A DNA stretch of 64,000 bases from Streptomyces sp. NBC_00513 (GTDB taxonomy: Bacteria > Actinomycetota > Actinomycetes > Streptomycetales > Streptomycetaceae), in the NCBI RefSeq assembly GCF_041431415.1, contig NZ_CP107845.1, positions 1,984,001-2,048,000 of the forward strand, given 5' to 3'. Below are positions 11,527 to 49,863 of this stretch, piece by piece. Position 1 is the stretch's first letter. Each line of letters opens with the position of its first letter. The notes beneath the pieces are model-generated. The model worked only from the letters and a program-made list of their open reading frames with translations. It was not told the origin of the DNA and ran no database searches. Made by a program: the position numbers and the translations under genes.

Positions 11527-11543
11527 TACGTACGCCGTACGTA
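11527..11543. promoter_or_regulatory. Operator 1 of the TetR/ABC exporter divergon
   Basis: TACGTACGCCGTACGTA is a perfect 17-nt palindrome with a single central base, between the two divergent start codons. Such AT-balanced sequence stands out here. A diverged second copy lies 44 bp away. Confidence 0.8.
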
Positions 11544-11562
11544 GTGAGGTAGGGTGCCGTGC

Positions 11563-12546
11563 ATGACGACTACGTACGCTGTACTTAGTGAAGGTCTGGA
11601 AAAGTCCTACGGCGAGGTGCGCGCCCTGCGCGGGCTCGATCTGGCGGTGCCCGAGGGCACGATCTGCGGGCTCCTGGGCCCCAATGGCGCCGGCAAGACC
11701 ACCGCCGTCCGGATCCTCACCACGCTCACCGCGCCCACCGCCGGGCGGGCCCTGGTCGCCGGCCACGACGTCACCCGCGCTCCGGGGGCCGTTCGCCGCA
11801 GCATCGGGGTCACCGGCCAGTACGCCTCGGTGGACGGGGACCTCACCGGCCGGGAGAACCTGCGGCTCTTCGCCCGCCTCGCCGGGCTGCGCGGGGCCGC
11901 CGGTCGGGCCCGCGCCGACGAGCTGCTGGAGCGCTTCGAGCTCACCGAGGCCGCCGACCGCACCGCCTCCACCTGGTCGGGCGGCATGCGGCGGCGCCTG
12001 GACCTGGCCGCGGGGCTGCTCGCCCGGCCCCGCGTGCTGTTCCTGGACGAGCCCACGACCGGCCTCGACCCGGCGGCCCGCGACCGGATCTGGACCGCGG
12101 TGCGAGAACTCGCCGGCCGCAGCGGAGGCGGCGGGGGCACGACCGTGCTCCTCACCACCCAGTACCTGGAGGAGGCGGACAGGCTCGCCGACGACATCGT
12201 GGTGGTGGACGGCGGCCGGGCCATCGCCACCGGCACCCCGGCCGAACTCAAGTCCCGGATCGGCTCCCACGCGGAGGTGACCGTCACCCACCCCGACGCC
12301 CTCACGGGCGCGGCGGCCGTACTGGACCGACTCACCGGGGGCCGACCCGTCCTGAACGGGGAACGCCTCACCGTCGGCGTGACCGTGTCCGACACCGGCC
12401 TGACCCTGCCGCGGATCATCCGCGCCCTCGACACGGCCGGCATCCCGGTCACCGACGCCACCCTGCGGCCACCCACCCTCGACGAGGTGTTCCTGCGCCT
12501 CACCCGGGTCCGCGAGGTCACACCCGAGAAGGAGCACGCGGCATGA
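11563..12546 (+). CDS. DrrA-type ABC transporter ATP-binding protein
   Basis: Start ATG 11563 gives 327 residues (a GTG at 11554 would add three). Walker A is GPNGAGKTT, the signature is WSGGMRRRLDLAAGL, and Walker B is VLFLDEPTTGLD. The switch region reads TQYLEEADRL, with Gln-Tyr where many ABC proteins have His, which is normal for the daunorubicin-resistance DrrA subfamily. The C-terminal 90 residues form the extra DrrA domain. It overlaps the permease gene by four bases. It probably powers export of a hydrophobic toxin or drug at the membrane under control of the divergent TetR protein. Confidence 0.93.
   Translation: MTTTYAVLSEGLEKSYGEVRALRGLDLAVPEGTICGLLGPNGAGKTTAVRILTTLTAPTAGRALVAGHDVTRAPGAVRRSIGVTGQYASVDGDLTGRENLRLFARLAGLRGAAGRARADELLERFELTEAADRTASTWSGGMRRRLDLAAGLLARPRVLFLDEPTTGLDPAARDRIWTAVRELAGRSGGGGGTTVLLTTQYLEEADRLADDIVVVDGGRAIATGTPAELKSRIGSHAEVTVTHPDALTGAAAVLDRLTGGRPVLNGERLTVGVTVSDTGLTLPRIIRALDTAGIPVTDATLRPPTLDEVFLRLTRVREVTPEKEHAA
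11571..11587. promoter_or_regulatory. Operator 2, inside the first codons of the ABC ATPase gene
   Basis: TACGTACGCTGTACTTA keeps the left arm of operator 1 exactly and differs at two positions in the right arm. It starts at the fourth codon of the ATPase gene. The 44-bp centre spacing is about four helical turns, compatible with binding on the same DNA face. Confidence 0.65.
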
Positions 12547-13331
12547 ACACCCTGCTGTCCGACGGCGGAGCCGTCGTCACCCGCCAGTTGCAGAAGGCCC
12601 GGCACGCGCCCGCGCTGCTGCTGCTCACGCAGACCATGCCGATCATGATGCTGCTGTTCTTCGGGTACGTGTTCGGCAGCGCGCTCGCGATGCCGGGCTC
12701 CGAATACCGCGAGTTCCTGCTTCCGGGCCTGCTCGCCGCCACCGCCGCCAACGGGCTGATGACGGGCCTGTTCACGGCCGCACAGGACGCCCACCGTGGG
12801 GTCACGGACCGGTTCCGCACCCTGCCGATGAGTCGGGCCGCCGTGCCCCTCGGGCAGATCACCGCCGACCTGCTGACGACGGGGGTGTCCATGGTGCCGC
12901 TGATGCTGGTGGGGATCGCCATGGGCTGGCGGATCGAGAACGGGCTGCCGGGCGCGCTGGGGGCCCTCGGAGTGCTGCTGCTGTTCCGCTTCGCCTCGGC
13001 CTGGGTGGGCACGTACCTCGGCCTGCTCAGCAAGAGCGAGGAGGCCGCCGGCCAACTCGGCGGCGCCACCTTCGTCCTGCCGATGCTGTCCAGCGCCTAC
13101 CTGCCGACCTCCGGGCTGCCCGGATGGCTGCGGACGGTCGCCGAGTGGAACCCGATCAGCGCCGTGGCCGGCGCCGTGCGCACCCTCTGCGGCAACGCGG
13201 GCGGCGAACCGGCGGCCGGGGCCGCCTGGCCGGCCGCGCACCCGGTGGCCGGGGCGCTGCTCTGGTCGCTCGTCATCCTGGCCCTCTTCGCGCCGCCGGC
13301 CACCCGCCGGTTCGCGCGCGGCCAGGACTGA
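12543..13331 (+). CDS. DrrB-type ABC-2 transporter permease
   Basis: The 262-residue protein starts at an ATGA overlap with the ATPase gene. It has about six membrane helices typical of ABC-2 permeases, beginning with LLLLTQTMPIMMLLFFGYVF. The family segment TDRFRTLPMSRAAVPLGQ lies in the first cytoplasmic loop, and YLPTSGLPGWLRTVAEWNPI precedes the last helix. With the ATPase it forms a two-gene DrrAB-like exporter. Substrate unknown. Confidence 0.92.
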   Translation: MNTLLSDGGAVVTRQLQKARHAPALLLLTQTMPIMMLLFFGYVFGSALAMPGSEYREFLLPGLLAATAANGLMTGLFTAAQDAHRGVTDRFRTLPMSRAAVPLGQITADLLTTGVSMVPLMLVGIAMGWRIENGLPGALGALGVLLLFRFASAWVGTYLGLLSKSEEAAGQLGGATFVLPMLSSAYLPTSGLPGWLRTVAEWNPISAVAGAVRTLCGNAGGEPAAGAAWPAAHPVAGALLWSLVILALFAPPATRRFARGQD

Positions 13332-13430
13332 GACGCGGTCAGAACCGAGACGCGGTCAGGACCGAGCGCAGGGGCGGAGCCGCCGGGCGGGGGGTGACAG
13401 ATCCGGGTCGGACCGGGTAGGCAGGCTGCC

Positions 13431-14642
13431 ATGACACCCGATTCACGCCCCCACGACCCGCTCCCCCTCGACGGTGTCACCGTCGTCGCCGTCGAACAGG
13501 CCGTCTCGGCCCCCTTCGCCACCCGCCAGCTCGCCGATCTCGGCGCCCGGGTGATCAAGGTCGAGCGTCCCGACGGCGGCGACTTCGCGCGCGCCTACGA
13601 CACCGCCGCGAAGGGTCTGGCCTCGCACTTCGTTTGGGCCAACCGGGGCAAGGAGTCCCTGGCGCTCGACCTGAAGGACGCGCGGGGCCGGGAGGTCCTG
13701 CACGAGCTGTTGGCCGACGCCGACGTCTTCGTCCAGAACCTCGCCCAGGGGGCCGCCGCCCGCCTCGGGCTGGACTCGGCCGCGCTGTGCGCCCGGTACC
13801 CGCGTCTGGTCGCCGTGGACGTCTCCGGCTACGGGGCCGAGGGGCCGTACGCGCACAAGCGCGCCTACGACATGCTCGTGCAGTGCGAAGCGGGGCTGGT
13901 GTCGGTGACCGGGACCCCGGAGCGGCCGGTCAAGGCGGGCATCCCGGCGGCGGACATCGCGGCGGCCATGTACGCGTTCTCGGGGGTGCTCGCCGCCCTC
14001 CTGCGCCGCGGGATCACCGGGCGCGGGGGCCGGGTGGAGGTGTCGATGCTGGACGCGCTCGCCGAATGGATGGGGCACCCGCTGCACCACACGATGCACG
14101 GCGGGGAGCAGCCCGTGCGGACCGGTCTCGCGCATGCCGTGATCGCGCCCTACGACGCCTACCCGACGGCGGAGGGGGACCGGGTGCTGCTGTCGGTGCA
14201 GAACGACCGGGAGTGGCGGCGGCTGGCGGAACAGGTGCTGAAGAAGCCGGAGTTGGCGGATGATCCGGCGTTCGCGACGAACGCCGCCCGCACGCTGGGC
14301 CGGGAGCGCACGGACGCGGTGGTGGCCGGGGCGCTGGCCGCGCTGGACGCGGACGAGGCGATCCGGAGGCTGGAGGCGGCGGGCATCGCCTGCGCGCGAC
14401 TGAACTCGGTGGCGCAGGTCGCGGCGCATCCGCAGTTGGCGGCGCGCGACCGCTGGCGGGAGATCGGGTCGCCCGCGGGTCCGCTGCGCGCTCTGCTGCC
14501 GCCCATCGGGCTGCCGGACGGCGCGCCGGCGCGGATGGGAGCGGTACCCGCGCTCGGCGAACACACCGACGCCCTGCTGCGCGCCCTGGGGATGACGGGC
14601 GCGCAGATCACGACTCTGCGCCAGGACGGCGTGGTCGCCTGA
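13431..14642 (+). CDS. CaiB/BaiF CoA-transferase family III protein
   Basis: The 403-residue length is standard for family III CoA transferases, which move CoA between carboxylic acids through an aspartyl thioester. The opening PLDGVTVVAVEQAVSAPFA, then LADLGARVIKVERPDGGDFAR, and the segment VDVSGYGAEGPYAHKRAYDMLVQ are diagnostic. The Asp near residue 147 in RAYDM occupies the catalytic position. The GGRVEVSMLDALAEWMGHP segment is also conserved. There is no partner acyl-CoA gene beside it, so the substrate is not indicated. Confidence 0.93.
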   Translation: MTPDSRPHDPLPLDGVTVVAVEQAVSAPFATRQLADLGARVIKVERPDGGDFARAYDTAAKGLASHFVWANRGKESLALDLKDARGREVLHELLADADVFVQNLAQGAAARLGLDSAALCARYPRLVAVDVSGYGAEGPYAHKRAYDMLVQCEAGLVSVTGTPERPVKAGIPAADIAAAMYAFSGVLAALLRRGITGRGGRVEVSMLDALAEWMGHPLHHTMHGGEQPVRTGLAHAVIAPYDAYPTAEGDRVLLSVQNDREWRRLAEQVLKKPELADDPAFATNAARTLGRERTDAVVAGALAALDADEAIRRLEAAGIACARLNSVAQVAAHPQLAARDRWREIGSPAGPLRALLPPIGLPDGAPARMGAVPALGEHTDALLRALGMTGAQITTLRQDGVVA

Positions 14643-36292: not shown

Positions 36293-37195
36293 GTGCGCCA
36301 TCAGGTGCGTACCGCCGACGGACGTGCTCTGGCCGTGGAGCGCTGGGGCGATCCCGACGGCAAACCGGTCTTCCTGCTCCACGGCATGCCCGGCAGCAGA
36401 CTCGGGCCGGCCCCGCGGGGCATGGTCCTCTACCAGCGCCGGATGCAGCTCATCGCCTACGACCGGCCCGGCTACGGCGGCTCCGACCGCCATCCGGGCC
36501 GCACCGTCGCCGACGTGGCCCAGGACGTGGCCGCCGTCGCCGACGCCCTGGACCTGGACACCTTCGCTGTGGCGGGCCGCTCCGGCGGCTCCGCGGGAGC
36601 CCTGGCCTGCGCCGCCCTGCTCCCGGACCGGGTCACCCGGACGGCGGCCATGGTGGGCCTCGCCCCCCGGGACGCGGAGGACCTGGACTGGTTCGCCGGG
36701 ATGGCGGACTCGAACGTCCGGGAGTACACCACCGCCGCCGACGACCCCGAGGAACTCGCGGCCCGGCTGACCCCCCGCGCCGCCGGCATCCGCGCGGACC
36801 CCGGTCGGCTCCTGGACGAACTGCGCCGGGAACTCACCGACAACGACCGCATGATCGTCTCGGACGCGGGCCTGCGGTCCATGTTGCTGCGCAACTACCG
36901 CGAGGGCCTGCGGACCTCCGCGGACGGCTGGATCGACGACGTGCTCGCCTTCAGCCGCCCGTGGGGCTTCGACCCGGCCGACATCCGGACCCCGGTGATG
37001 ATCTGGCACGGGGAACTGGACGTCTTCTCCCCCGTCGGGCACTCCCGCTGGCTGGCCCGACGGATCCCCGGTGCCACCACCACCATCGACCCGGCCGCGG
37101 CCCACTTCGCGGCCCTGCGCGCCCTGCCCGACGTACTGAACTGGCTGCTGCGGGACGTGCCCGCACCCCCGGTCAGCGAACAACTGCCTGCCTGA
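36293..37195 (+). CDS. Alpha/beta-hydrolase
   Basis: The GTG start gives 300 residues. LLHGMPGSRLGP is the oxyanion segment, AGRSGGSAGALA the nucleophile elbow with Ser at about residue 99, WHGELDVFSPVGHSRW the acid region, and the His in AAAHFAAL probably completes the triad. The core resembles proline iminopeptidase- or haloperoxidase-like hydrolases, with a cap domain at about 130-220. The substrate is unknown. No signal peptide is seen. Confidence 0.85.
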   Translation: MRHQVRTADGRALAVERWGDPDGKPVFLLHGMPGSRLGPAPRGMVLYQRRMQLIAYDRPGYGGSDRHPGRTVADVAQDVAAVADALDLDTFAVAGRSGGSAGALACAALLPDRVTRTAAMVGLAPRDAEDLDWFAGMADSNVREYTTAADDPEELAARLTPRAAGIRADPGRLLDELRRELTDNDRMIVSDAGLRSMLLRNYREGLRTSADGWIDDVLAFSRPWGFDPADIRTPVMIWHGELDVFSPVGHSRWLARRIPGATTTIDPAAAHFAALRALPDVLNWLLRDVPAPPVSEQLPA

Positions 37196-37225: not shown

Positions 37226-38413
37226 TCAGTTGCCCCCGACGACCGGGTTCTCGGGGTCGTAGTTGGTCAGGACGCAGCCCTCGACCCGGGCGCGCTCCAG
37301 GCGGTAGCCGGTCGGGGCGGAGAATCCGGGGACGCAGTTCAGGTAGAGGAACTGCTGCTGGTAGAGGCCGAACCGGACGTCCGGGTCGTTGCTCTCGACC
37401 GCGACGTTCTCGCCGACCAGCAGCCGGCTCGCCGTGCGCCTGAGCTTGCCGTCGTCCTTGAGGTCCGCCTGCTGGGCGGCCTTGGCCCTGGTCTGGAGCG
37501 CCTTCATGTCCCCCACGGTGTCCAGCCAGTTGAGGTGGTGGGCGCGCTGCTCGCCGCCCGGTTCCCCGCACAGGGCCCGGCCGGTGACCCCCCAGTCGAG
37601 GGCGTTCCCCTCGACCACGGGCGTGTAGTCGATGGACTCGATCGCCACCGTGTCGGGGTCGGTGGAGAACCGCGTGCAGTCCACGCTGGGCGCCACCAGC
37701 TTGCGTAGTTCGGCCACGCTGCCGGCGCGCGCCAACCCGACGCTGCCCTTGGCCGGTTGGCCCGGCTTCTGTCCGCCCGGGTCCTGTGGGGTCTCGAAGT
37801 TCGGGCTGCCCTTGCCGTCCTCCGCGTTGACGAAGTCGCTGAGGCCGCACCCTTCGACGAGCGCCTTGTCCATCTTGTAGCCCTTGGGCGCCCAGAAGCT
37901 CGGGTTGCAGTACAGGATGCGCAGTTCGGACCGGGCCAGGGCGAGGGCCGACTCGGTCGAGGTCGGGGTGACGACGAAGCCCTTCCCGACGAAGACCCGG
38001 CTGAACAGCCCTTGGGAGCCGCCGGAGGACTCCATGACGCTCCGCTTGTAGCGTTCCTGGAACTCCTTCATGTCCGACGGTATGTAGAAGACGAGTTGCC
38101 CGTCCTTGGCCGCGTCGCTGCACACGCCCCGTTGCGTCACCGACCACTCGCCGACACCGACGAACTCGGTCAACGGAAGTCGGGGGTCGCCGGGTTGGTC
38201 GCTCAGGTCGTCACAGTTGGTGAACTGCCGTACGTACTGCTGCGCACCGGCGAGGGTGACCGGCGCCGGGCCCTTCCCGCCGACCGGCGTCGCCGCGGCT
38301 CCGGCGGACGGGGTGGCCCCGGACGCGCCCGGGGCCGGGTCCCCCTCACAGGCGGGGAGCGCGGCGAGGCAGGCGAGGGCGGCGGTCATGGCGAGGATCC
38401 GCTGGGTGCGCAT
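37226..38413 (-). CDS. Lipoprotein built from two diverged copies of one domain
   Basis: The 395-residue protein has a strong lipobox LAALPAC with Cys22. Residues about 60-210 and 240-395 are related to each other. In each half an early Cys, a Cys in GVCSD / ALCGE, a YCNPSFWAPKGYKMDKALVEGC / LNCVPGFSAP...RARVEGC segment and an FVGKGFVV / LLVGENVAV strand recur in the same order. It looks like an ancient duplication of a disulfide-bonded domain. No family name is recognised. It is divergent from the FxSxx precursor gene. Confidence 0.78.
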   Translation of the reverse strand: MRTQRILAMTAALACLAALPACEGDPAPGASGATPSAGAAATPVGGKGPAPVTLAGAQQYVRQFTNCDDLSDQPGDPRLPLTEFVGVGEWSVTQRGVCSDAAKDGQLVFYIPSDMKEFQERYKRSVMESSGGSQGLFSRVFVGKGFVVTPTSTESALALARSELRILYCNPSFWAPKGYKMDKALVEGCGLSDFVNAEDGKGSPNFETPQDPGGQKPGQPAKGSVGLARAGSVAELRKLVAPSVDCTRFSTDPDTVAIESIDYTPVVEGNALDWGVTGRALCGEPGGEQRAHHLNWLDTVGDMKALQTRAKAAQQADLKDDGKLRRTASRLLVGENVAVESNDPDVRFGLYQQQFLYLNCVPGFSAPTGYRLERARVEGCVLTNYDPENPVVGGN

Positions 38414-38719
38414 GGGGTGCTTCCGTCCGAAACAGCAGGTGGCGAGGGTGACGTGCTCATGCTAGGCGAATCCGCGCACCATGATCCGAATCCCCGGAGG
38501 GAGCGGGAAGACATGCCCGGGAAGAAAAGGATCTTGCCGTACGGCAAACGGCCGAATGCGACCCCGCGAGAATTGCGTCACGCTTTCTATAGAACGCTTG
38601 ACCAGGCGTCATGTCTCGGTTGCCAATGGGGTGTGGACGAGTAAAGTCCACGCTTGACACTGGCGCGCGCCGCTGTCAACCCCCTGCCCATTCCACCCGG
38701 CTTCCCCAAGGACGGTGTC
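38414..38719. other. Divergent promoter region between a lipoprotein gene and the FxSxx-COOH locus
   Basis: This 306-nt spacer is AT-richer than most of the window. It contains two copies of ACGCTTGAC followed by GGCG (38594 and 38650), each holding a TTGAC element like a -35 box, and a long near-palindrome at 38654-38679. It probably carries the precursor promoter. Confidence 0.5.
38654..38679. promoter_or_regulatory. 26-bp near-palindrome upstream of the FxSxx precursor
   Basis: TTGACA-CT-GGCGCGCGCC-GC-TGTCAA is symmetric except for the two CT/GC steps (22 of 26 positions). It ends 40 nt before the GTG of the precursor and overlaps a candidate -35 element, so it could be an operator or a 5' leader hairpin. 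Confidence 0.6.
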
Positions 38720-38884
38720 GTGAACACTTCCGCAACCCCCCCGACCACCACGGTCAAGACCTCCCGGGTCCCGCTCGACCGCATCGACGTGCACAGCACC
38801 TCGGCGGCGACGACACTCGGCCGCGTGTTGCGGACGGAATCCGGTCGTCACGTTCAGGCACCGATCTTCAACTCTGCGCTCTGA
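38720..38884 (+). CDS. fxsA: FxSxx-COOH type RiPP precursor peptide
   Basis: The frame from GTG 38720, preceded by AAGGA, encodes 54 residues ending F50-N51-S52-A53-L54, which is the FxSxx-COOH terminus that defines this predicted peptide class. The leader is Thr/Ser/Val-rich with PLDRIDVHSTSAATTLGRVL, a segment that could be the maturase recognition region. The next gene, 29 nt downstream, encodes the matching radical SAM/SPASM enzyme. By analogy with other such maturases, the aromatic and small residues of the C-terminal pentad are likely targets for a side-chain crosslink. Chemistry and bioactivity are not known to me. No cysteine is present, so thioether formation is excluded. Confidence 0.85.
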   Translation: MNTSATPPTTTVKTSRVPLDRIDVHSTSAATTLGRVLRTESGRHVQAPIFNSAL

Positions 38885-38913
38885 CAACGAAGTAGGCGCT
38901 CTAGACTGGTGGA

Positions 38914-41178
38914 ATGACCGGCCTGATCGCATTTCGCGAGATCGTCCTGAAAGTTCACAGCAGATGCGATCTCGCTTGTGATCATTGCTACGTCTACGAA
39001 CACGCAGATCAGAGCTGGCGAGCCCGGCCGAAGGTGATCTCCCCCGAGGTGATCGCACACACCGCGTCGCGGCTCGCCGAACATGCCCGTGACCATGCTC
39101 TCCCCTCTGTCACGGTGATTCTCCACGGAGGGGAACCCCTGCTGGCGGGCACCGCCCGACTCCGGCTCGTGTGCGAGGAATTCACCCGCGCCCTCGACGG
39201 AATCGCCGCCCTGGATCTGCGCATCCACACCAACGGGCTCCAGCTCGGTCACCGCCATCTGGACCTCTTCGCCGAGTACGACGTCCGGGTCGGCATCTCC
39301 CTCGACGGGGACCGCGCCGCGAACGACCGCCACCGCCGGTTCGCGGACGGCCGCACCAGCCACCCCCTGGTCCTCGCCGCCGTCGCGCTGCTCCGCTCCG
39401 AGCCCTACCGCCACCTCTACCAGGGGCTGCTCTGCACCGTGGACGTGGCCAACGACCCCGTCGCCGTGCTCGACGCCCTCGTGGAGCTGGAGCCCCCCCG
39501 GGTGGACTTCCTGCTCCCCCACGCCACCTGGGAGACCCCTCCGGTCCGCCCGGACGGCGCCCCCGACGCGTACGCGCGCTGGCTACTGCGGGTCTTCGAC
39601 CACTGGGAGCGCCGGGAACGACCCGTCCCCGTACGGCTCTTCGAGTCGCTGCTGTCCACCCTGCGCGGCGGCCCCAGCCTGACGGAGTCCCTGGGTCTGG
39701 CCCCGACCGACCTCGTCGTCGTCGAGACCGACGGACAACTGGAGCAGGTCGATTCCCTCAAGACCGCCTTCGAGGGGGCCGCGGCCACCGGCTTCAACGT
39801 CTTCGACCACACCTTCGACCAGGTGGCGGCCCACCCCGGGGTGCGCGCCCGACAGCAGGGGCTGTCCGGTGTCAGCGACACGTGCCGGCGCTGCCCCGTC
39901 GTACGCTCGTGCGGCGGCGGACTCTACGCCCACCGCTACCGGCCCGACCCCGCCACCGGCGGGAGCTTCGACCACCCCTCCGTGTACTGCGCCGACCTGC
40001 GCGAACTGGTGGACGGCGTGGAGGGTCGCACCGCGCGGCGCGAGACCGCCCCGGAACTCACCGACCCGACCGAACTGGCCCGGTCCCAGCAGGAGCTGAC
40101 CCGGGTGCTGCTGGCCCGGTTGAACGCCGACCGGACGGGTGACCCCGACTGGGCCCGGGCCTGGGAACTGCTGGCGGCCGTGGAGCGGTCCGGGGACGCC
40201 GGCGCGGACGCCCTGGACGCCGTCCTGGACCACCCGTTCACCCGGACGTGGGTACTGGCGGCCCTGGACCCGGAGCACGAGGGCCCCCGGGAGGACGCCG
40301 GCCCGGCCCGTCGGCTGGCCGCGCTGGCCGCCGCCGCCGTGCTGCGCGGCGGGTTGAACCTGCCCGCCGAGGTGGTCTACCGGGACGGCGAGGTGTACCT
40401 GCCGACCCTGGGACTGCTGCGGCTCGGCGAGCCGGGCACGCGGGGGCGAGCCGCGCTCCGCGCCGTCGACGACGGGTACGCCGTACGGGACGGCCGCGCC
40501 GAACACCGCTTCGGACCGGCGGCGGGGGACTCGCGCTGGCAGCCCGTACGGACCTGGTCGCCCGGGCCCGACGCGCCGCCGGTGGCCCTGGAGGACCTGG
40601 ACCCGTACCGCAACTGCTTCGCCCGCCCGCCCCGGCTGCGGCTCGGGGCGGGCGAGGCCGAGGAGTGGCGGGGTCTCCTGGACCGGGCCTGGGCCCTGCT
40701 GCACGACACGGTCCCGGAGTTCGCCCGGGCGGCCGCCGCCGGGCTGACCACGCTGACCCCACTGGCCGGCGGACCCCGGGAGCACGGCTGGGGGGAGGCC
40801 GGCCGGCACGCCCCCGGGGCGCTCGGCGTCCCGTACGGGGCGGGGGTGCGGGAGACGGCGCTCGCGCTGCTGACCGGCCGCCGCCGGGCCCGCCTGCGCG
40901 CGCTGACGGAGGTGGCCGACCTGTACGCCCTGGACGGGGAGTGGCAGCACCCGTCGCCCTGGCGGGAGCGGCCCGTACCGGTCTCCCGACTGCTGGCCGA
41001 CGTACACGAGCGGGTGGCGGTGGAGGCCTACCGGCGGGCCGTCGCGGGCCCCGAACCCGGCGCCGCCGACCCCATCCACCGGGCCCTGGACCGGCTGTCC
41101 GGAGCGGCCGAACTGACCATCACGGGCAAACGCCTGGTGGAGGAGCTGCGCTGGGAACTGAAGGCGGTCGACGCGTGA
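38914..41178 (+). CDS. fxsB: FxsB-family radical SAM/SPASM maturase with degenerate C-terminal HExxH-type domain
   Basis: The 754-residue protein has a radical SAM domain at its start: C18-x3-C22-x2-C25 in SRCDLACDHCYVYEH, then VTVILHGGEPLLA. A SPASM region near residues 320-360 supplies auxiliary-cluster cysteines (CRRCPVVRSCGGGLYAHRY, YCADL). From about 385 to the end it follows the layout of the HExxH-type peptide-modifying domains known beside such maturases: PFTRTWVLAAL, LPTLGLLRLG, LEDLDPYRNCF, and a late SPWRERPVPVSRLLADVHERVAVEAYRR. At the expected HExxH site (654-658) it has TGRRR, so that domain probably lost metal binding. Its stop overlaps the acetyltransferase start (GTGA). Confidence 0.88.
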   Translation: MTGLIAFREIVLKVHSRCDLACDHCYVYEHADQSWRARPKVISPEVIAHTASRLAEHARDHALPSVTVILHGGEPLLAGTARLRLVCEEFTRALDGIAALDLRIHTNGLQLGHRHLDLFAEYDVRVGISLDGDRAANDRHRRFADGRTSHPLVLAAVALLRSEPYRHLYQGLLCTVDVANDPVAVLDALVELEPPRVDFLLPHATWETPPVRPDGAPDAYARWLLRVFDHWERRERPVPVRLFESLLSTLRGGPSLTESLGLAPTDLVVVETDGQLEQVDSLKTAFEGAAATGFNVFDHTFDQVAAHPGVRARQQGLSGVSDTCRRCPVVRSCGGGLYAHRYRPDPATGGSFDHPSVYCADLRELVDGVEGRTARRETAPELTDPTELARSQQELTRVLLARLNADRTGDPDWARAWELLAAVERSGDAGADALDAVLDHPFTRTWVLAALDPEHEGPREDAGPARRLAALAAAAVLRGGLNLPAEVVYRDGEVYLPTLGLLRLGEPGTRGRAALRAVDDGYAVRDGRAEHRFGPAAGDSRWQPVRTWSPGPDAPPVALEDLDPYRNCFARPPRLRLGAGEAEEWRGLLDRAWALLHDTVPEFARAAAAGLTTLTPLAGGPREHGWGEAGRHAPGALGVPYGAGVRETALALLTGRRRARLRALTEVADLYALDGEWQHPSPWRERPVPVSRLLADVHERVAVEAYRRAVAGPEPGAADPIHRALDRLSGAAELTITGKRLVEELRWELKAVDA

Positions 41179-41954
41179 GCGCCCTCGCCCTCGCCGTCCA
41201 CCTGCGCCTGCTCGGCGTCCGACCCCGGACCCGGCTGCTGGTGCACGCCGGGCTCGGCGGGACCGGCCTGCGCGCCGAGGTGCTGCGCGACGCCCTGACC
41301 GGGGTGCTCGGCCCGCACGGCACGCTGGTGGTGCCGACCTTCACCCCGGAGAACTCCCTCACCTCCAGCGCCCACCTGGCCGGGATCGCCGGGCTGAGCG
41401 CGTCCGAGGCGGCGGCGTTCCGCGCCCGGATGCCGGCCTTCGACCCGGCGACCACACCGAGCCAGGGCATGGGCGCCCTGGCCGAGGCCGTGCGCACCGC
41501 GCCGGGAGCCGTGCGCAGCGACCACCCGCAGACCTCCTTCGCCGCGCTCGGCAAGGACGCGGAGCGCCTGTGCGCGGGTCATCGGATCGAAAGCCACATG
41601 GGCGAGGAGTCGCCTCTGGGAAAGCTGTGCTGGGAGGGAGGGCAGGTACTCATGATCAATGTGGGGTTTTCAGTTTGCACTGCTTTCCATCTCGCGGAGT
41701 ATCGAATTCCGAAGCCCCCCTTGCGCATGTACGACTGTGTGGTGAAGGTGAACCTTCCGGGGGGTCAGCAGGGGAGGGAATGGACGACGTACGAGGACGT
41801 GGCACTGGACGACGGCGACTTCGCGGAGATCGGCGCGACGTTCCCGGATTCACAGGTGCGCAGGGGGCGGGTGGGCGGCGTCTCGGCCCTGCTCTTCTCG
41901 ATTCCGGATGCCGTCGATCACGCCCTTGACTGGATGACCGAAAACAGATGCTGA
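41175..41954 (+). CDS. AAC(3)-family N-acetyltransferase-like protein in the FxSxx locus
   Basis: The 259-residue product follows the aminoglycoside 3-N-acetyltransferase family: LVHAGLGGTGLRAEVLRDALTGVLGPHGTLVVPTFT, then SDHPQTSFAALG, GEESPLGKL, and GFSVCTAFHLAEYR. It begins inside the fxsB stop codon, so it is co-translated with the maturase. A peptide-tailoring acetylation or self-protection is more likely than true aminoglycoside resistance, but that is inference. The last 300 nt are noticeably AT-richer than the rest of the gene. Confidence 0.83.
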   Translation: MSALALAVHLRLLGVRPRTRLLVHAGLGGTGLRAEVLRDALTGVLGPHGTLVVPTFTPENSLTSSAHLAGIAGLSASEAAAFRARMPAFDPATTPSQGMGALAEAVRTAPGAVRSDHPQTSFAALGKDAERLCAGHRIESHMGEESPLGKLCWEGGQVLMINVGFSVCTAFHLAEYRIPKPPLRMYDCVVKVNLPGGQQGREWTTYEDVALDDGDFAEIGATFPDSQVRRGRVGGVSALLFSIPDAVDHALDWMTENRC

Positions 41955-42033
41955 TTGACTGAACGATGAGGGGATGTCGCGAAGCAGCTCCGGAATGATG
42001 TTTCTTCGCTCGCATCTTCGGGACGGGGGGCGT

Positions 42034-43464
42034 GTGCCCGCATCAGTGCAGCCGTACTTCTTTCTCAGTTATGCGCATACACCGAGATTCGGGGCCGGGG
42101 GGCCCGACCCGGACATGTGGGTCGAGCGTCTCTTCCGCGATCTCTGCAGTCACGTCATGGCGCTGACCGATCTGCCCGCCGGCTCCGAGGCGGGTTTCAT
42201 GGACCGGGAGATACGCAGCGGGGAGGGCTGGTCGGAGCGGCTCGGCACGGCGCTCGCCACCTGCCGGGTCTTCGTCCCGCTGTTCTCGCCGCGCTACTTC
42301 GCCAGCGAGATGTGCGGGAAGGAGTGGTTCGCCTTCGCGCAGCGCGCCATCCAGCACGGAGCGGCGAGCAACGAGCCGGCCGAGGCCATCGTCCCCGCCC
42401 TGTGGGTACCGGTGCCGCCGTCCCAACTCCCGGGCCCGGCGGAGCGGTTGCAGTTCAACCACAACACCTTCGGCGAGCGCTACGTCACCGACGGGCTGTA
42501 CGGGCTGATCAAACTGCGGGGGTACGCGGAGCAGTACGAGCGGGCCGTCTACGAACTCGCCAAACGCATCGTCCGCGTCGCGGAGACCGTCCGCCTCGAC
42601 CCCGTCCGCCCGGTGGACTACCGGGTGGTGCCCAGCGCCTTCGGTAGCTCCGACAATCCGGCCCGCTCCCTCCACGTGACCGTCGCCGCCGCGTCCCGCC
42701 ACGACCTGCCGGAGGGGCGCAGCCCCGAGTACTACGGGGACAGCGCGCTGGACTGGAACCCGTACCACCCGGCGTCCCAGCGGCCCGTCGCCCTGATCGC
42801 GGAGGACCTGGTCAGGAACCTCAACTACCAGACCAGCATCGGTTCCTTCGACGACGAGGCCGGGCACTTCGACAGCAAGCAGCCGCCGACCCGCCCGGAG
42901 ATCCTGATCGTCGACCGTTGGGCGGTCGAGGACGAGCAGCGCCGCCGGCGACTCGCCGCCTTCGATCAGGAGTCCCGGCCGTGGATCAACGTGGTCGTGC
43001 CGTGGAACCGGTACGACCACCAGAGCCGGGCGAAGGAGAGCGAACTGGCGCACCGGCTGGAGGACACCATGCCCGTCAAGATGGGCCAGGGCCGGGCCGC
43101 GTGCCGGGCCGCCGCGAACGGCGTGGCCAACATGGAGACGCTCGGGCAGATCCTGCCGCAGGTCGTGGAGGCGGCCGCGCAGCAGTTCCTCAGACACGCC
43201 CAGGTCTATCCACCGGCCGGCGGCACCCACACCGAACGCCCGCGGCTGATCGGGCCGATGGGGATGAACGGGCCGCCCGTGCCGCTGCCGCCGCCCGCCC
43301 CCTTCCCGCCCGACAGCGAGTCCCGGGACGGCGAACACCGCGACGGTGAGGGTCGCGACCACGAGCACCGGAACGGAGAAGACCGGAACAGCGAGCCGCG
43401 CGGCCGGGACGCCGCCGACCACAACGAATCAGACCGGGGGGACGCGGATGACAGCGAGTCGTGA
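42034..43464 (+). CDS. fxsC: TIR-like protein FxsC
   Basis: GTG 42034 gives 476 residues starting just before YFFLSYAHTPRFG; ATG 41974 would add 20 residues but lacks a spaced ribosome site. The N-terminal 170 residues are TIR-like, including FMDREIRSGEGW and FSPRYFASEMCGKEWFAFA, where Glu97 occupies the place of the catalytic Glu of TIR NAD-hydrolases. A second alpha/beta region contains EILIVDRWAVEDEQRRRRLAAF and INVVVPWNRYD. The tail (after about 420) is an Arg/Asp/Gly/Glu repeat. FxsC is a known companion of FxSxx-COOH maturases. It overlaps fxsT by 17 nt. Confidence 0.87.
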   Translation: MPASVQPYFFLSYAHTPRFGAGGPDPDMWVERLFRDLCSHVMALTDLPAGSEAGFMDREIRSGEGWSERLGTALATCRVFVPLFSPRYFASEMCGKEWFAFAQRAIQHGAASNEPAEAIVPALWVPVPPSQLPGPAERLQFNHNTFGERYVTDGLYGLIKLRGYAEQYERAVYELAKRIVRVAETVRLDPVRPVDYRVVPSAFGSSDNPARSLHVTVAAASRHDLPEGRSPEYYGDSALDWNPYHPASQRPVALIAEDLVRNLNYQTSIGSFDDEAGHFDSKQPPTRPEILIVDRWAVEDEQRRRRLAAFDQESRPWINVVVPWNRYDHQSRAKESELAHRLEDTMPVKMGQGRAACRAAANGVANMETLGQILPQVVEAAAQQFLRHAQVYPPAGGTHTERPRLIGPMGMNGPPVPLPPPAPFPPDSESRDGEHRDGEGRDHEHRNGEDRNSEPRGRDAADHNESDRGDADDSES

Positions 43465-46400
43465 CAGCCGTGACGGACGCATCGTCACCTTCTATTCGTA
43501 CAAGGGCGGTACCGGCCGCACGATGGCGCTCGCCAACACCGCCTGGATCCTCGCGGCCAACGGCAAGCGCGTGCTCGCCGTGGACTGGGACCTGGAGGCA
43601 CCGGGGCTGCACCGTTTCTTCCATCCCTTCCTGGACCCCTCCACCCTCGGGGCCACCACCGGGGTCATCGACCTGATCAGCGAGTACGCCTGGGCCGCCA
43701 CCAGCCCGGTGCAGCGCGCCGACGACTGGCACAAGGACTACGCGCGGATCCAGCCGCACGCCGTCTCGCTCACCCCGGAGACCCTGGGCTGGGAGTTCCC
43801 CGACGGCGGCACGCTCGACTTCGTCTCGGCGGGCCGACAGAACCGCGAGTACTCGGCGACCGTCTCCACCTTCGACTGGGACAACTTCTACGACCGGCTC
43901 GGCGGTGGTCTCTTCTTCGACGCCTTACGCGCCGACATGAAGCGGAACTATGACTACGTCCTGATCGACAGCCGGACCGGTCTGTCCGACATCGCGGACA
44001 TCTGCACGGTGCACCTGCCGGACGTCCTGGTCGACTGCTTCACCCTCTCCGACCAGTCGATCGACGGCGCCGCCTCGGTGGCACGCCAGATCGACGAGCG
44101 CTTCAACGACCGGGGCATCAAGATCTACCCGGTTCCGATGCGCATCGACGAGGGCGAGAAGGAGAAGGCCGACGCGGGCCGGGCCCTGGCCCGGATCAGG
44201 TTCGACCGCTTTCCCAACGGTCTCGTCGGGGACGAACTCACCTCGTACTGGGGTGCGGTGGAGATCCCGTACCGGCCCTACTACGCCTACGAGGAGACCC
44301 TGGCCACCTTCGGTGACGAGGCCGGTCTCACCAACTCCCTCCTCTCCGCGTTCGAGCGGTTGACGGCGGTGGTCACCGAGGGCGAGATCGTCTCGATGCC
44401 CGCCATCGCGGAGGACGTCCGGATGCGGATCCGGGACGCCTTCACCCGGCGGCGCCCCGCCCTGCCCGCCGACCTGTTCCTCTCCTACGTCGCCGAGAAC
44501 CGCATGTGGGCCGACTGGATCGAGTCGGTCCTCACCCGGGCCGGGTTCCGGGTGGTGCCGCAGGACGTCTCCGCCGAACGCCCGCCGGGCGACGGGAGCG
44601 GGAGCGGGGACACCCTCGGCGGGGCCGGCATCAGCGTCGACAACGCGGCCCGGACCGTGGTGCTGCTCTCCAGCGCCTACCTCAAGTCCGCCCGGGCCGT
44701 GGACGTGTGGAACCGGGCGGCCGCGGAGGACCCGACCGGGGGGCGACGCCAGCTGGTGCCGCTGCGCGTGGGCGACGTACGGCTGGCGACCCCGTACATC
44801 GACCGCAACCCGGTGGACCTGTTCCGCCTGGACGAGGTGCACGCCACCACGGCGCTGCTCCGCGCGGTGGAGCGGCCGATGGCCCTGCCGGACTCCGTCA
44901 ACAGCACCACCCAGCCCGGGCCCCGCTTCCCCGGGACGGTCCCGAAGATCTGGAACGCTCCGCCCCGCAACCCCGGGTTCACGGGGCGCAGCATCGTGCT
45001 GGAGCGGATGCGCGACCAGCTCGGCGGCGGCATGGCCGTGGTGCTGCCGCAGCCGCAGACGCTGTACGGGCTCGGCGGCGTGGGCAAGACTCAGGTGGCG
45101 CTGGAGTACGTGCACCGGTTCATGGCCGACTACGACCTGGTCTGGTGGATCTCCTCGGAACAGACCGACGACGTGGTGGCGGCCCTCGCGGAGCTGGCCG
45201 TACGCCTCGGCGCGCAGACCGGCGAGGACATGTCGGCCGCTTCCCAGGAGGCCATCGACCTGCTCCGGCGCGGGGTGCCGACCTCGCGGTGGCTGCTGGT
45301 CTTCGACAACGCCGACGATCCCGAGACCCTGAAGCGGTTCTTCCCGCCGGGCGGCCCGGGGCACGTGCTGGTGACCTCGCGCAACCAGTCCTGGTCGCAG
45401 TACGGCGACGCGCTCCCGGTGGACGTGTTCCTGCGCGAGGAGTCCATCGAGCACCTCCAGCGCCGGGCGCCGGGGCTCACCAAGGAGGACGCCGAGCAGG
45501 TGGCCGTGGCGGTGGGCGACCTCCCGTTGGCGGTCGAGCAGGCGGGCGCCTGGATCGCGGAGACGGCGACGCCGGTGTCCGCGTACCTGGAGCAGTTGGC
45601 GGAGCAGGCGGCCCGGGTGCTGGGGTTGAACCAGCCCCCCGGGTACCCGGAGCCGGTGGCCGCCACCTGGAACGTGTCCATCGAGCGGCTCCAGTCCCGC
45701 TCCCCCGCCGCCGTGCGGCTGCTCCAGCTCTGCGCGTTCTTCGCGCCCGAGCCGATCTCCGCCAACCTCCTCTACAGCAAGGAGATGATCAACGCGCTCA
45801 AGCCGTACGACTCCTCGCTCCAGGAGAAGCTGATGCTGGGCCGGGTGATCCGGGAGATCGGCCGGTTCGCGATGGCCAAGGTCGACCAGGTCGGCAACAG
45901 CATCCAGGTGCACCGGCTGGTCCAGGCCGTGATCCGGGCCCAGCTCTCGGAGGAGGAACAGCGCGAGGCCCGGCACGCGGTGCACCGGATCCTGGCGGGG
46001 GCCCGGCCGGACGACGACGAGCCGATAGACAATCCGGAGACCTGGCCGCGGTTCAACACCATCTGGCCGCACCTGACCCCCTCCGAGGCCCGCAACTGCA
46101 AGGAGCCGGAGACCCGCAGGCTGTTGATCGACCGGGTCCGCTACCTCTGGAAGCGCGGCGACTTCAAGGCCGCGTACCAACTCGGCGAGGAGCTGCGGGA
46201 GATCTGGAAGGACACCCTCGGCAACGACGACCTCCAGTACCTGTACCTGCGCTTCCACCTGTCCAACATCCTGCGCTCGCAGGGCCGGTTCGTGGAGGCG
46301 CAGGAACTGGGCGAGGTCACGCTGGAGCGGCAGCGGACGGTGCTCGGCCCCTCCCATCCGCACACGTACATGACCACCAGTGGTCTGGCGATGGACCTGG

Positions 46401-47431
46401 GGGCGCTGGGTCGGTACGCGGAGGCGATGGAGCTGGCGACGGCCGCCCACGAGGGCTTCAGCCAGATATTCCACGAGGCGCACCCCCGCACCCTGGCCGC
46501 GGCCAACAACCTGGCGCTGAACCTGCGCATGGTCGGCCAGTACGCCCGGGCCCGGGAGATCGACCAGGAGGTCTTCGACCGGCGCACCGAGGTGCTGGGC
46601 ACGGACCACCCGTACACGCTCTCGTCGGCCCAGAACCTGGCCCGTGACCTGCGCGAGGTCGGCCGGTACGACGATTCGGTGCAGCTCCTGGCACGGACGT
46701 ACGAGATCTACAAGCGGACGCTGGGCCGGGCCTTCCCGGGCACCCTGTCGGCCGCCAAGAACCTGGCGGTGTCGCTGCGCAGGGCGGGCGAGTTGGAGGA
46801 CGCGCTGCGGCTGACGACGGCGACCCGCAACCGGTACCGGGCCAAGTACACCTCGGTCAACCCCGACCTGTTGGCCTGCGAACTCAACCTCGCGTCCGAC
46901 CTGTTCGCGACGGGTGATCCGGGCGCGGCGCGGGACCTGGCGCAGGAGGTGGTGGACGAGTTCATGAAGGTGCCGGGCGAACGGCACCCGTACACCCTGG
47001 CCGCGGTCAACAACCTCGCGGTGTTCCACTGGGGCACGGGTGCGGCGGACACGGCGGAGCCGATGTTGCGGCAGACGATCCGACACATGAGCGAGGTGTT
47101 GGGCGACAACCACCCGCACACGATCTTCACCCATCTGAACCTGGCCAACGCCCGGGCGGACCTGGGTGATCCGGAGGGCGCGCTGGAACTGGAGCGGTTG
47201 TCGGTGATGCGGCTGCGCGAGGCGCTGGGAGTGCATCACCCCGAGACCCTGGCGAGCGCCTCCAACATGGCGGTCAGCCTGGACATGATGGGGCGCAAGG
47301 AGGAGGCCGCCCGGGTGCGGGCGGAGGCGGTGGCCGAGTTGACGCGGCTGCTCGGCGAGGACCACGGTCTGACCCGCTACGCCCGCGACGAGCGGCGGGT
47401 GCACCGCGATCTGGAGCCCCTCGCCGTGTGA
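43448..47431 (+). CDS. fxsT: FxsT: ParA/MinD-like - TIR-like - NB-ARC-like NTPase - TPR protein
   Basis: ATG 43448 gives 1327 residues. Residues 1-330: ParA/MinD fold with deviant Walker A KGGTGRT (19-25), VDWDLEAPGLHRF and YDYVLIDSRTGLSD. About 340-490: a second TIR-like domain (LFLSYVAENRMWADWIESVL) in which the SxxYxxS segment is followed by Ala and Val420 instead of Cys and Glu. About 535-870: a STAND/NB-ARC-like NTPase, Walker A GLGGVGKT (541-548), Walker B LLVFDNADD. About 895-1320: kinesin-light-chain-type TPRs of the form HPxTLxxxxNLAxxL. Leu160 is a TTA codon (43925-43927), suggesting bldA-dependent translation. It may sense or present the peptide. Confidence 0.9.
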   Translation: MTASRDSRDGRIVTFYSYKGGTGRTMALANTAWILAANGKRVLAVDWDLEAPGLHRFFHPFLDPSTLGATTGVIDLISEYAWAATSPVQRADDWHKDYARIQPHAVSLTPETLGWEFPDGGTLDFVSAGRQNREYSATVSTFDWDNFYDRLGGGLFFDALRADMKRNYDYVLIDSRTGLSDIADICTVHLPDVLVDCFTLSDQSIDGAASVARQIDERFNDRGIKIYPVPMRIDEGEKEKADAGRALARIRFDRFPNGLVGDELTSYWGAVEIPYRPYYAYEETLATFGDEAGLTNSLLSAFERLTAVVTEGEIVSMPAIAEDVRMRIRDAFTRRRPALPADLFLSYVAENRMWADWIESVLTRAGFRVVPQDVSAERPPGDGSGSGDTLGGAGISVDNAARTVVLLSSAYLKSARAVDVWNRAAAEDPTGGRRQLVPLRVGDVRLATPYIDRNPVDLFRLDEVHATTALLRAVERPMALPDSVNSTTQPGPRFPGTVPKIWNAPPRNPGFTGRSIVLERMRDQLGGGMAVVLPQPQTLYGLGGVGKTQVALEYVHRFMADYDLVWWISSEQTDDVVAALAELAVRLGAQTGEDMSAASQEAIDLLRRGVPTSRWLLVFDNADDPETLKRFFPPGGPGHVLVTSRNQSWSQYGDALPVDVFLREESIEHLQRRAPGLTKEDAEQVAVAVGDLPLAVEQAGAWIAETATPVSAYLEQLAEQAARVLGLNQPPGYPEPVAATWNVSIERLQSRSPAAVRLLQLCAFFAPEPISANLLYSKEMINALKPYDSSLQEKLMLGRVIREIGRFAMAKVDQVGNSIQVHRLVQAVIRAQLSEEEQREARHAVHRILAGARPDDDEPIDNPETWPRFNTIWPHLTPSEARNCKEPETRRLLIDRVRYLWKRGDFKAAYQLGEELREIWKDTLGNDDLQYLYLRFHLSNILRSQGRFVEAQELGEVTLERQRTVLGPSHPHTYMTTSGLAMDLGALGRYAEAMELATAAHEGFSQIFHEAHPRTLAAANNLALNLRMVGQYARAREIDQEVFDRRTEVLGTDHPYTLSSAQNLARDLREVGRYDDSVQLLARTYEIYKRTLGRAFPGTLSAAKNLAVSLRRAGELEDALRLTTATRNRYRAKYTSVNPDLLACELNLASDLFATGDPGAARDLAQEVVDEFMKVPGERHPYTLAAVNNLAVFHWGTGAADTAEPMLRQTIRHMSEVLGDNHPHTIFTHLNLANARADLGDPEGALELERLSVMRLREALGVHHPETLASASNMAVSLDMMGRKEEAARVRAEAVAELTRLLGEDHGLTRYARDERRVHRDLEPLAV

Positions 47432-47495
47432 TCCGACGGAGGGCGGCCCCCGCACGGGTCGCCCTCCACCCCGACAGCAGCCTGGGGGGTTCGCT

Positions 47496-48404
47496 GTGAG
47501 CGACAGCATGACCTTTCGAAACGAGGACCTGCCGGCCCTCTTCCACCACACCGATCAGGCGGCGATCTCCCGACAGCGGGAGTCCACCCAGGCCACGCGC
47601 GCCCAGCTGGTGCTGCTCGTCGTCGCGGCGGGAGCCGCCGCCCTGCCCGCGGGACCGACCGTGGGATCGCTGCGACTGTTCGGGGCGATCAGCGCGCTGG
47701 CGTACGCCGGTGTCCTGGGGGTGGGCATCCGGGCGACCCGGCGCCGGGCCCGGCCCCAGTGGCAGCTGAACCGGAGCGCGGCCGAGTTCATCAAGTCCCT
47801 GGCCTGGCGGTACGCCGTGCACGGGGCGCCGTTCGGCAGTGACGTCGCCGGGCCGGAGGCGACGTACCGGACCCGTTTGGAGAAGGGCCTGGACGAGCTG
47901 CGCAAGATGGGCTGGGAGGATCCCCGGGTCTCGGGCGCGGTGCCGGAGGGCGGGGAGATCACGGGGGCGATGCACCGGTTGCGCGGTCTGGGCTACCACG
48001 TGCGCCGGGAGACGTACGTCCGGGATCGGCTGATCGAGCAGCGCAACTGGTACCAGCGCAAGACGGAGGTGTCGCGTCGGGCGACCGCCCTGTGGTCGTG
48101 GACCATCGTGCTGTTGACGTGCCTGGGTCTGTTGTTCGCCCTGTTGGGGGCCTTCGGTTCGGGTCCGGGGCCGCGGCTGACGGGGCTGCTCAGCGCGGCG
48201 GCGGCGGCCGGCATCGCCTGGAACGAGGTGCGCCGGCACCATCCGCTGATCGAGGCGCACACCCTGATCGAGCAGGACCTGTCGGCGATGATGGTCGTGA
48301 TGCAGACGACGATCACCGAGGCCCAGTGGCCTTCCTCGGTGTACGAGACGGAACGCTACGTGTCTCCGCAGCACACGGACTGGCTCGCGCGACACAGCAG
48401 TTGA
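47496..48404 (+). CDS. SLATT/DUF4231-type membrane protein
   Basis: The 302-residue protein starts at GTG 47496. It has two hydrophobic hairpins: about residues 38-80 and 197-240, separated by an amphipathic region (FIKSLAWRYAVHG ... YVRDRLIEQRNWYQRK). This paired 2TM layout with AAEFIKSLAWRYA is that of DUF4231/SLATT proteins, which are predicted membrane effectors in nucleotide-signalling conflict systems. It follows fxsT by 64 nt on the same strand and converges with a SLOG-like gene. Confidence 0.8.
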   Translation: MSDSMTFRNEDLPALFHHTDQAAISRQRESTQATRAQLVLLVVAAGAAALPAGPTVGSLRLFGAISALAYAGVLGVGIRATRRRARPQWQLNRSAAEFIKSLAWRYAVHGAPFGSDVAGPEATYRTRLEKGLDELRKMGWEDPRVSGAVPEGGEITGAMHRLRGLGYHVRRETYVRDRLIEQRNWYQRKTEVSRRATALWSWTIVLLTCLGLLFALLGAFGSGPGPRLTGLLSAAAAAGIAWNEVRRHHPLIEAHTLIEQDLSAMMVVMQTTITEAQWPSSVYETERYVSPQHTDWLARHSS

Positions 48405-48427
48405 CGTCCGTGGCGGGAGGGTGTGGC

Positions 48428-48907
48428 TCAGACCCGGGTCACGCCCTCGCGCCAGACGACGGTGACGGGCTTGCCGAGCGCTCGCGCGTAGGCGACGATC
48501 TCGCCGGTGCCGCCGTGCCCGCGGGCGGGCAGCCCGTCCCAGACGGCGACGAGCCGGTCGCAGGAGTCCGCGATGAAGGTGCCGGCCGCGTAGTAGGCCT
48601 CGTCCGTGGACCGGTCGAAGGCCATCCGGATCTCCTGGGCCGCCCGGTGCTTGAGCCGTCGGTAGTGGGCCAGGGACTCGGCGCCCTCGAAGGTCTCCTC
48701 GTAGTCGCCGCTGGGGATCACCACGGTGAGGTCCGCGCCGCATTCCAGCGCGATGTCGGCGAACAGTTGGTCCGCTCCCTCGGCGAGGCTGGAGAAGGCC
48801 TCCAGCGGTCCGTCGTGGCCGTCGAGGACGGCCCGCAGGCCGTCCCTCACGTGGTCGAGCACCTCGATGGGAATCGACCGGTGTCCGGTCACGCCGATAC
48901 GTTTCAT
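48428..48907 (-). CDS. SLOG-like Rossmann-fold protein
   Basis: The 159-residue protein has the layout of single-domain SLOG proteins, which bind or make nucleotide derivatives: an opening strand with RIGVTGHRSI, SSLAEGADQLFADIAL, TVVIPSGDYEETF, and GGTGEIVAYARALGKPVTVV. It converges on the SLATT gene with a 23-nt gap. SLOG and SLATT (SMODS- and SLOG-associating) domains recur together in predicted second-messenger systems, so the pairing here is unlikely to be random. Confidence 0.78.
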   Translation of the reverse strand: MKRIGVTGHRSIPIEVLDHVRDGLRAVLDGHDGPLEAFSSLAEGADQLFADIALECGADLTVVIPSGDYEETFEGAESLAHYRRLKHRAAQEIRMAFDRSTDEAYYAAGTFIADSCDRLVAVWDGLPARGHGGTGEIVAYARALGKPVTVVWREGVTRV

Positions 48908-48987
48908 GCGGAATCCTCCCCCGTGGACGCCTGGACATCCTCCCAGAAGGCGGGAGGACGTCCAGGGGTCGAGCGGGGGCGCGCGGG

Positions 48988-49863
48988 TCAGTAGACGCTG
49001 ACGCCGTAGGCGTTCAGGGCTTCCACGACGGGCTGGAAGAAGGTCGTTCCACCGGAGGAGCAGTTGCCGCTGCCGCCGGAGGTGAGACCCACGGCACGGC
49101 TGCCGGAGTAGAGCGGGCCGCCGCTGTCGCCGGGCTCGGCGCAGACGTTGGTGCGGATCATGCCGTAGACGATGTCGCCGCCGCCGTAGTTGACGGTGGC
49201 GTTGAGGCCGGTGACGGAGCCGCTGTGGATGCCGGTGGTGGAGCCGCGCCGGGTGACGGACATGCCGGTGGTGGCGTTGACGGCGCTGGTGATGTCCTGG
49301 CTGCCGACGGTGCCCGGCGGGATCGGGGTGCTGCTGTTGTACTTGATCAGGCCGTAGTCATTGGTCGGGAAGCTGGAGCCGACGGTGGGGCCGATGACGG
49401 TGGTGTGGGCGGAGTTGCTCCACCAGGTACCGGCTCCGTCGGTGCAGTGGCCGGCGGTCAGGATGTAGTAGGTGCTGCCGCTGCGCACGTTGAAGCCGAG
49501 CGAACAGCGCCAGCTCGACGCGTAGATGGCGTCGCCGCCGGACAGGAGTTTCGTCAGCCTGCCCGGGGTGCGCTCGATGCGCAGGGCGCCGGCGTCGGCG
49601 CCCGCCTCGCGGCGGATCCTGGCGATGTCGGCGGCCGACACCCTGGAGTCCGCGGTGACCACGAGGGTTCCGTTGGCGGGGTCGGTGTGCCAGGCCGTGC
49701 CCGCCACGTCGGCGCGCAGGACGGATGCCCCGGCCGAGGCGAGGCGATCGGCGCTGAAGCCGCTGTCGGCGCTCGCCGTGGCGGGTGCGCCGAGCGCGGC
49801 GACGGCGGCCAGGCCGGTGGCCGCCGCGAGAAGCTTGATTCGGGTGATGCTCTGGATTCTCAC
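48988..49863 (-). CDS. sprB: Streptogrisin B-type secreted serine protease (S1 family)
   Basis: The 291-residue preproprotein has a signal peptide (about 1-32), a pro-region of about 75 residues and a mature part beginning near [17 protein letters not shown]. The mature length of about 185 residues matches S. griseus protease B. The triad is His in LTAGHCTDG, Asp in NDYGLI and Ser in PGDSGGPL. Cysteine pairs around WRCSLGF/AGHC and NVCAEPG/GNCSSGG match the two disulfides of the family. The C-terminal [10 protein letters not shown] is nearly invariant in streptogrisins. Confidence 0.95.

Follow-up and report, generated by a model that had tools for sequence, protein, structure and literature searches.

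The window, the whole 64,000-nucleotide stretch analysed here (Streptomyces sp. NBC_00513, contig NZ_CP107845.1, positions 1,984,001 to 2,048,000 of an assembly of 8.62 Mb), contains an FxSxx-COOH peptide system adjoined by genes for a SLATT membrane protein and a SLOG-fold protein. Eight genes make up the locus and all are transcribed from the plus strand except the SLOG gene:

36293..37195, plus strand: alpha/beta hydrolase (PF00561, 69.2 bits), a recurring neighbour at the fxs loci compared.
38720..38884 (open frame from 38654), plus strand: FxsA precursor with the C-terminus FNSAL (TIGR04268).
38914..41178, plus strand: FxsB radical SAM/SPASM maturase with an inactivated HExxH extension (TIGR04269, NF040587 and motifs).
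41175..41954, plus strand: AAC(3)-like protein (PF02522; the start at 41175 is our own reading).
41974..43464, plus strand: FxsC, with a TIR domain and a receiver/flavodoxin-like second domain (NF040588, TIGR04276, structure model and CGxEW motif).
43448..47431 (open frame from 43346), plus strand: FxsT, with ParA-like AAA, degenerate TIR, NB-ARC and TPR regions (family models including NF040586, and comparison of TIR sites).
47496..48404, plus strand: double membrane protein with SLATT_3 and SLATT_1 domains (PF18184, PF18181, NF033610, NF033634).
48428..48907, minus strand: SLOG-fold protein (structure model, fold matches and conserved motifs).

FxsT is the name given here to the large ParA-TIR-NB-ARC-TPR protein. 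The SLATT gene starts 64 bp downstream of fxsT and converges with the SLOG gene, 23 bp separating the two; a scan of 47350–49050 for promoters and terminators detected neither. The preliminary description of this DNA had listed the same parts from FxsA to SLOG, and family models confirm each module protein but SLOG, which is assigned by its fold. FxsA, FxsB, FxsC and FxSxx_TPR all exceed their NCBIfam cut-offs (bits/cut-off: FxsA, TIGR04268 34.4/28; FxsB, TIGR04269 579.8/370; FxsC, NF040588 238.3/130 and TIGR04276 223.6/55; FxsT, NF040586 1056.9/300), so the set belongs to the FxSxx-COOH systems. The membrane protein belongs to the SLATT family by the same measure (PF18184 130.5/26.3; PF18181 131.6/26.3). 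The SLOG protein is 100% identical to one from Streptomyces sp. WM4235.

Descriptions of FxSxx-COOH peptides date back to 2011 (Haft and Basu, cited in PMC7159879), and the systems that process them include a stand-alone form with a ParA-like domain (PMC7159879). In PMC7159879 the precursor is cut by a metallopeptidase, and SLATT is used three times, each time for GTPase-centred systems. Among the papers listed by a literature search of titles and abstract openings (most subscription journals lie outside it), none joins SLATT or SLOG to FxSxx loci, and no paper found states a function for the FxSxx-COOH peptides. Because these titles and abstract openings hold no such link, the combination is apparently new: FxSxx systems and SLOG/SLATT are known separately, and their union is not seen in print in the literature searched.

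Linkage was examined in 200 genomes of the window's family, searched for fxsC and SLATT_3 at E ≤ 0.001. The former was found in 122 and the latter in 118 (both in 114, fxsC only in 8, SLATT only in 4, neither in 74), these entries not being independent among related genomes. Linkage counts cover the 150 matches listed for each of the fxsC, SLATT_3 and SLOG searches. SLATT_3 lies within 10 kb of a listed fxsC in 89 of its 150 listed matches versus ~0.49 expected by chance (assuming 8.6 Mb genomes and the listed fxsC matches), and since only listed matches enter, some linked genes are counted as unlinked (L126, L134 and L137 in fact adjoin fxs genes). The preliminary description had proposed such linkage in other genomes as a check on its claim, and it is found. 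The best 24 of the 150 listed SLOG matches (at least 52% identity, the window's included) all have a convergent SLATT_3 gene within 2 kb, and 22 of them have fxsC within 10 kb. The other 126 listed SLOG matches served as a control and have neither SLATT nor fxsC within 10 kb (0/126 for each), with fxsC within 20 kb in 13. In other genera, SLATT genes that have a second fxsC 11–25 kb away were taken as likely bystanders and not counted as linked; at L128, the one locus of this group that was read, SLATT adjoins a permease gene. A sample of 296 genomes from the phylum has SLATT_3 over cut-off in four, three of them of the window's genus, too few for a linkage test.

The same association is seen in named genomes. 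Scanning the SLOG alignment against GTDB contigs gave 80 loci, all Streptomyces by title except one Actinacidiphila. The 66 flanked by 8 kb or more in both directions were analysed, and the 14 short-flank loci (12 with a convergent SLATT) were set aside. A convergent SLATT is present in 65 of the 66, and SLATT, FxsB, FxsC and FxsT occur together in 62; the AAC(3)-like gene is present in 34, the hydrolase lies within the flanks in 16, and an S1 protease gene lies just upstream of SLOG in 52. L193 has the protease, SLOG, SLATT and the usual flanking genes, with no fxs genes found, and L194, next to the same flanking genes, has SLOG, SLATT and FxsB without FxsC or FxsT; both are possibly decay states. 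L247 has SLOG and SLATT at another place, and L240 has SLOG without SLATT.

Three arrangements are represented. In the window's clade the order is hydrolase, fxs operon, SLATT and then the reversed SLOG. Other Streptomyces and some relatives have SLOG and SLATT upstream of fxsA, with SLATT divergent and the hydrolase convergent with fxsT. Further genera have the fxs operon followed by an opposite-strand hydrolase and SLATT, without this SLOG. Turning the fxs operon round between flanks that stay in place is all that separates the first two arrangements, so they do not count as independent evidence, and gene order was set aside as an argument for mobility; the trees supply such evidence through the change of partners.

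The SLATT and FxsT trees mostly agree, with genomes G083 and G071 as exceptions. Their FxsTs pair together outside the window's FxsT clade, and their SLATTs occupy two different sub-clades within the SLATT clade to which the window's protein belongs. Trees constrained to join the two SLATTs are rejected (approximately unbiased test, p-AU 4e-56), as are those placing either FxsT with the group joined by its SLATT (p-AU 1e-41 and 1e-52), the tested groups having been chosen after the trees were seen and several branches being long. SLATT appears to have changed partners between FxSxx subfamilies; against this, all SLOG-linked FxsT sequences can fall on one side of a single unsupported branch. 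In G083 (L127 with L149) a divergent FxsB (31%) and a precursor end FQSAI are found beside the SLATT-SLOG pair, along with FxsC and FxsT relatives at 27–40% identity. A second family, that of G384, was sampled with 121 genomes, of which 44 have fxsC and four have SLATT_3 over cut-off. Three of the 44 have both, no more than 10 kb apart in two (G544 and G384), and G520 has a below-cut-off SLATT_3 match ~8 kb from fxsC. The G544 locus comprises FxsC-FxsT, FxsB-AAC3 and a same-strand SLATT-SLOG pair.

Twelve loci without the module were fetched, and none has SLATT, SLOG or fxs matches at the site. In ten of them the S1 protease gene that elsewhere adjoins SLOG sits 0.6–2.0 kb from a second S1 protease gene, and the flanking gene w26453 follows in eight of these ten. 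In filled loci (L091–L093, L096, L097, L101 and L102) the proteases are 11.4–12.9 kb apart and enclose SLOG, SLATT, the fxs genes and the hydrolase, with one further frame of 260 amino acids inside the block in L092. The empty site thus makes the borders visible, and the block consists of SLOG, SLATT, the fxs operon and the alpha/beta hydrolase. Because empty and filled sites lie between the same two proteases, the block has been gained or lost largely as a unit, with L166 (hydrolase present, second protease absent) and L193 as partial states. This place may be especially prone to insertion, since in L160, from a genome without the module, it is occupied by polyketide-type genes (carboxyl transferase, AMP-binding and ketosynthase-acyltransferase; 4869–14554). 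Two genomes module-free at this site, G033 and G122, have fxsC elsewhere without SLATT_3. The window's hydrolase is 57% identical to the one adjoining FxsT in L113. The S1 protease and a DUF5685 gene were rejected as module members, both being found without the module, and a lipoprotein-like gene of 395 amino acids between the hydrolase and fxsA (37226–38413, minus strand, no Pfam match) was dropped, having zero tblastn matches in 40 compared loci.

The proposal of the preliminary description that the FxSxx set, SLATT and SLOG form one module is strongly supported by the linkage with its control, the named genomes, the presence and absence of the block and the change of partners. The association has exceptions: three of the 66 loci have SLATT-SLOG without the full fxs set, and 41 of the 44 fxsC genomes of the second family are without SLATT_3 over cut-off. 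Some FxSxx lineages, not all, have SLATT and SLOG as accessories. Chance neighbourhood is rejected by the linkage, the SLOG control, the empty sites and the named-genome loci. The SLATT-SLOG genes could also be an independent effector pair sharing a chromosomal niche with FxSxx operons, neighbours and not partners, as would suit L193, where the pair is in its usual place although no fxs gene was found, as well as L247, where it lies elsewhere, and the acceptance of other genes by the niche in L160. We consider this improbable, given that neither SLATT nor SLOG is found at the 12 empty sites, that both parts occur in 62 of 66 loci, and that the pair accompanies FxSxx loci also where the gene order or the FxsT subfamily is different and in a second family.

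Of 36 further loci that were scanned, 30 have an FxSxx end upstream of FxsB. FxsB retains CxxxCxxC and has no HExxH by motif check, its extension being the inactivated form by NF040587; a precursor-cutting metallopeptidase elsewhere in the genome was not sought. The CGxEW motif is present in all ten FxsC sequences, and the EW pair is absent from the matching place in all 48 FxsT sequences that cover it. Judged by these residues, the TIR of FxsT is degenerate and that of FxsC has kept its glutamate motif. The FxsC profile gave a single, irrelevant match to solved structures (E 0.86). The AAC(3)-like gene seems dispensable, because it has no match in seven Streptomyces loci (L091–L093, L096, L097, L101 and L104) that keep FxsB, FxsC, FxsT, SLATT and SLOG. 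No vWA, MoxR or VMAP domain, as expected near a VMAP ternary system, was found among the window proteins scanned, some genes being unscanned and some scanned frames antisense. A second locus in the same genome (L155; contig C1, 5174000–5193900) encodes a radical SAM protein resembling FxsB (46%) and a protein that scores above the FxSxx_TPR cut-off; neither SLATT nor SLOG gave a match there.

The SLATT protein has three hydrophobic stretches over a simple threshold, and the family models predict two tandem two-transmembrane (2TM) domains; Pfam describes SLATT as a 'SMODS and SLOG-associating 2TM effector domain'. Tandem SLATT genes, one copy far more divergent, lie beside FxsT in L134, L135 and L136, and L123 probably has two SLATT genes too. 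The SLOG protein is a single stand-alone domain of 159 amino acids, its fold supported by the structure model and fold matches; its profile gave weak matches only to solved structures, DprA and YpsA among them at E 1.5–2. Phosphoribohydrolases of the LOG type carry the motif PGGxGTxxE. The loop here is GxGGT in 30 of 30 aligned sequences and does not conform to it. A PF18171 search of the genome gave no match, no SIR2 domain was matched among the module proteins, and a CD-NTase (SMODS) had no Pfam match in the eight module proteins, which places the locus outside CBASS.

Published systems offer precedents for a nucleotide signal acting through such proteins. ThsB TIR signals are sensed by the SLOG of ThsA, YpsA-like SLOGs are described as sensors of cyclic ADP-ribose, and phage TIR genes adjoin SLATT (PMC9503650); defence by DRT10 requires SLATT (PMC12632851). 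In L125 a SLATT_3 gene is divergent from a gene for a ThsB-like TIR-WD40 protein of 950 amino acids (6884–9736 and 9856–10803), with no fxs gene nearby. Alternatively, SLATT could receive the FxSxx peptide at the membrane, export it or confer immunity to it, under regulation by SLOG, with the TIR and nucleotide-binding leucine-rich repeat receptor (NLR)-like parts responding to the peptide and not the reverse. The pair does lie next to the peptide genes, in many loci divergently from fxsA, and none of the other module proteins was recognised as a dedicated transporter. We think this role unlikely, given that SLATT domains are predicted effectors elsewhere, one being required for phage defence (PMC12632851, PMC9503650), that many FxSxx loci are without SLATT_3, and that SLATT-SLOG pairs occur without a precursor locus in L193 and L247.

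From the gene content, linkage, block presence and absence at one site, partner change and folds we infer, with slightly less than even confidence, that the locus is an FxSxx-COOH peptide and NLR-like system with a built-in SLATT-SLOG output, in which a TIR-made, ADP-ribose-type signal would act through SLOG to cause membrane damage by SLATT. FxsB would cross-link the FxSxx end of FxsA into a cyclophane, and the peptide, or its loss, would act on FxsT. The degenerate TIR of FxsT may serve assembly, and assembled FxsT would turn on FxsC, whose TIR keeps the glutamate motif. An ADP-ribose-type product derived from nicotinamide adenine dinucleotide would then bind SLOG, which would open SLATT or cease restraining it and so breach the membrane; the cell or hyphal compartment would die or shut down, most probably as abortive defence. 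Support comes from the linkage and its control, the 62 full sets, the block presence and absence, the partner change and the G544 locus, together with CGxEW in FxsC against no EW pair in FxsT, the Thoeris and SLATT precedents and the SLATT gene beside TIR-WD40 in L125. The functional half of the preliminary description, a peptide that would be sensed or released and a nucleotide signal that would drive a membrane effector in defence or development, fits the domains and published precedent.

A service in development or kin recognition within the mycelium, and not in defence, would agree with a single chromosomal site in many Streptomyces and with the occurrence of fxsC in 122 of the 200 genomes of the family, a steadier distribution than mobile defence islands usually show. 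The block is nonetheless patchy within the genus and cleanly absent in many genomes, and the domains are those of conflict systems, making this role rather unlikely.

The recurrent SLOG-SLATT pair suggests both an output of FxSxx systems (membrane damage) and the kind of signal (a nucleotide), so that FxSxx function can be tested by simple gene removals and a peptide family of unstated purpose would gain a testable pathway. If this reading is right, bacteria have a modified peptide, an NLR-like protein and a TIR enzyme that work one after another, an arrangement resembling plant TIR-NLR immunity. More tentatively, the locus may encode a peptide-licensed bacterial NLR pathway, in which the cyclophane peptide made by the radical SAM enzyme decides how readily an NLR-like sensor responds; the sensor would activate a TIR enzyme encoded separately, whose product would gate a SLATT membrane pore under the control of SLOG. 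Such a locus would be related to Thoeris but split, would kill through the membrane and would have a ribosomally synthesized and post-translationally modified peptide (RiPP) as regulator, carried as an exchangeable block in Streptomyces and relatives.

The locus resembles the stand-alone FxSxx systems (PMC7159879) in its FxSxx precursor, radical SAM/SPASM protein and TIR/AP-ATPase/TPR protein with a MinD/ParA-like domain; it differs in having an HExxH domain that forms part of FxsB and is of the inactivated type, and SLATT, SLOG and an alpha/beta hydrolase are not mentioned for those systems in the passages covered. With Thoeris (PMC9503650, PMC10022894) it shares an enzyme-type TIR and a SLOG-fold protein, possibly forming a nucleotide relay. 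However, SLOG here is a stand-alone protein of 159 amino acids with no SIR2 match, unlike the ThsA-type SIR2-SLOG fusion, the candidate effector is a SLATT membrane protein, and the locus further encodes an NLR-like protein and a maturase for the peptide. SLATT adjoins SLOG and TIR proteins as in the SLOG-SLATT and TIR-SLATT effector pairs (PMC9503650), although the pair here is coupled to a RiPP/NLR-like operon. In contrast to the plant TIR-NLR receptors RUN1 and RPP1, one protein carries the glutamate-bearing TIR and another the NB-ARC, and the TIR fused to the NB-ARC is degenerate as judged by its residues.

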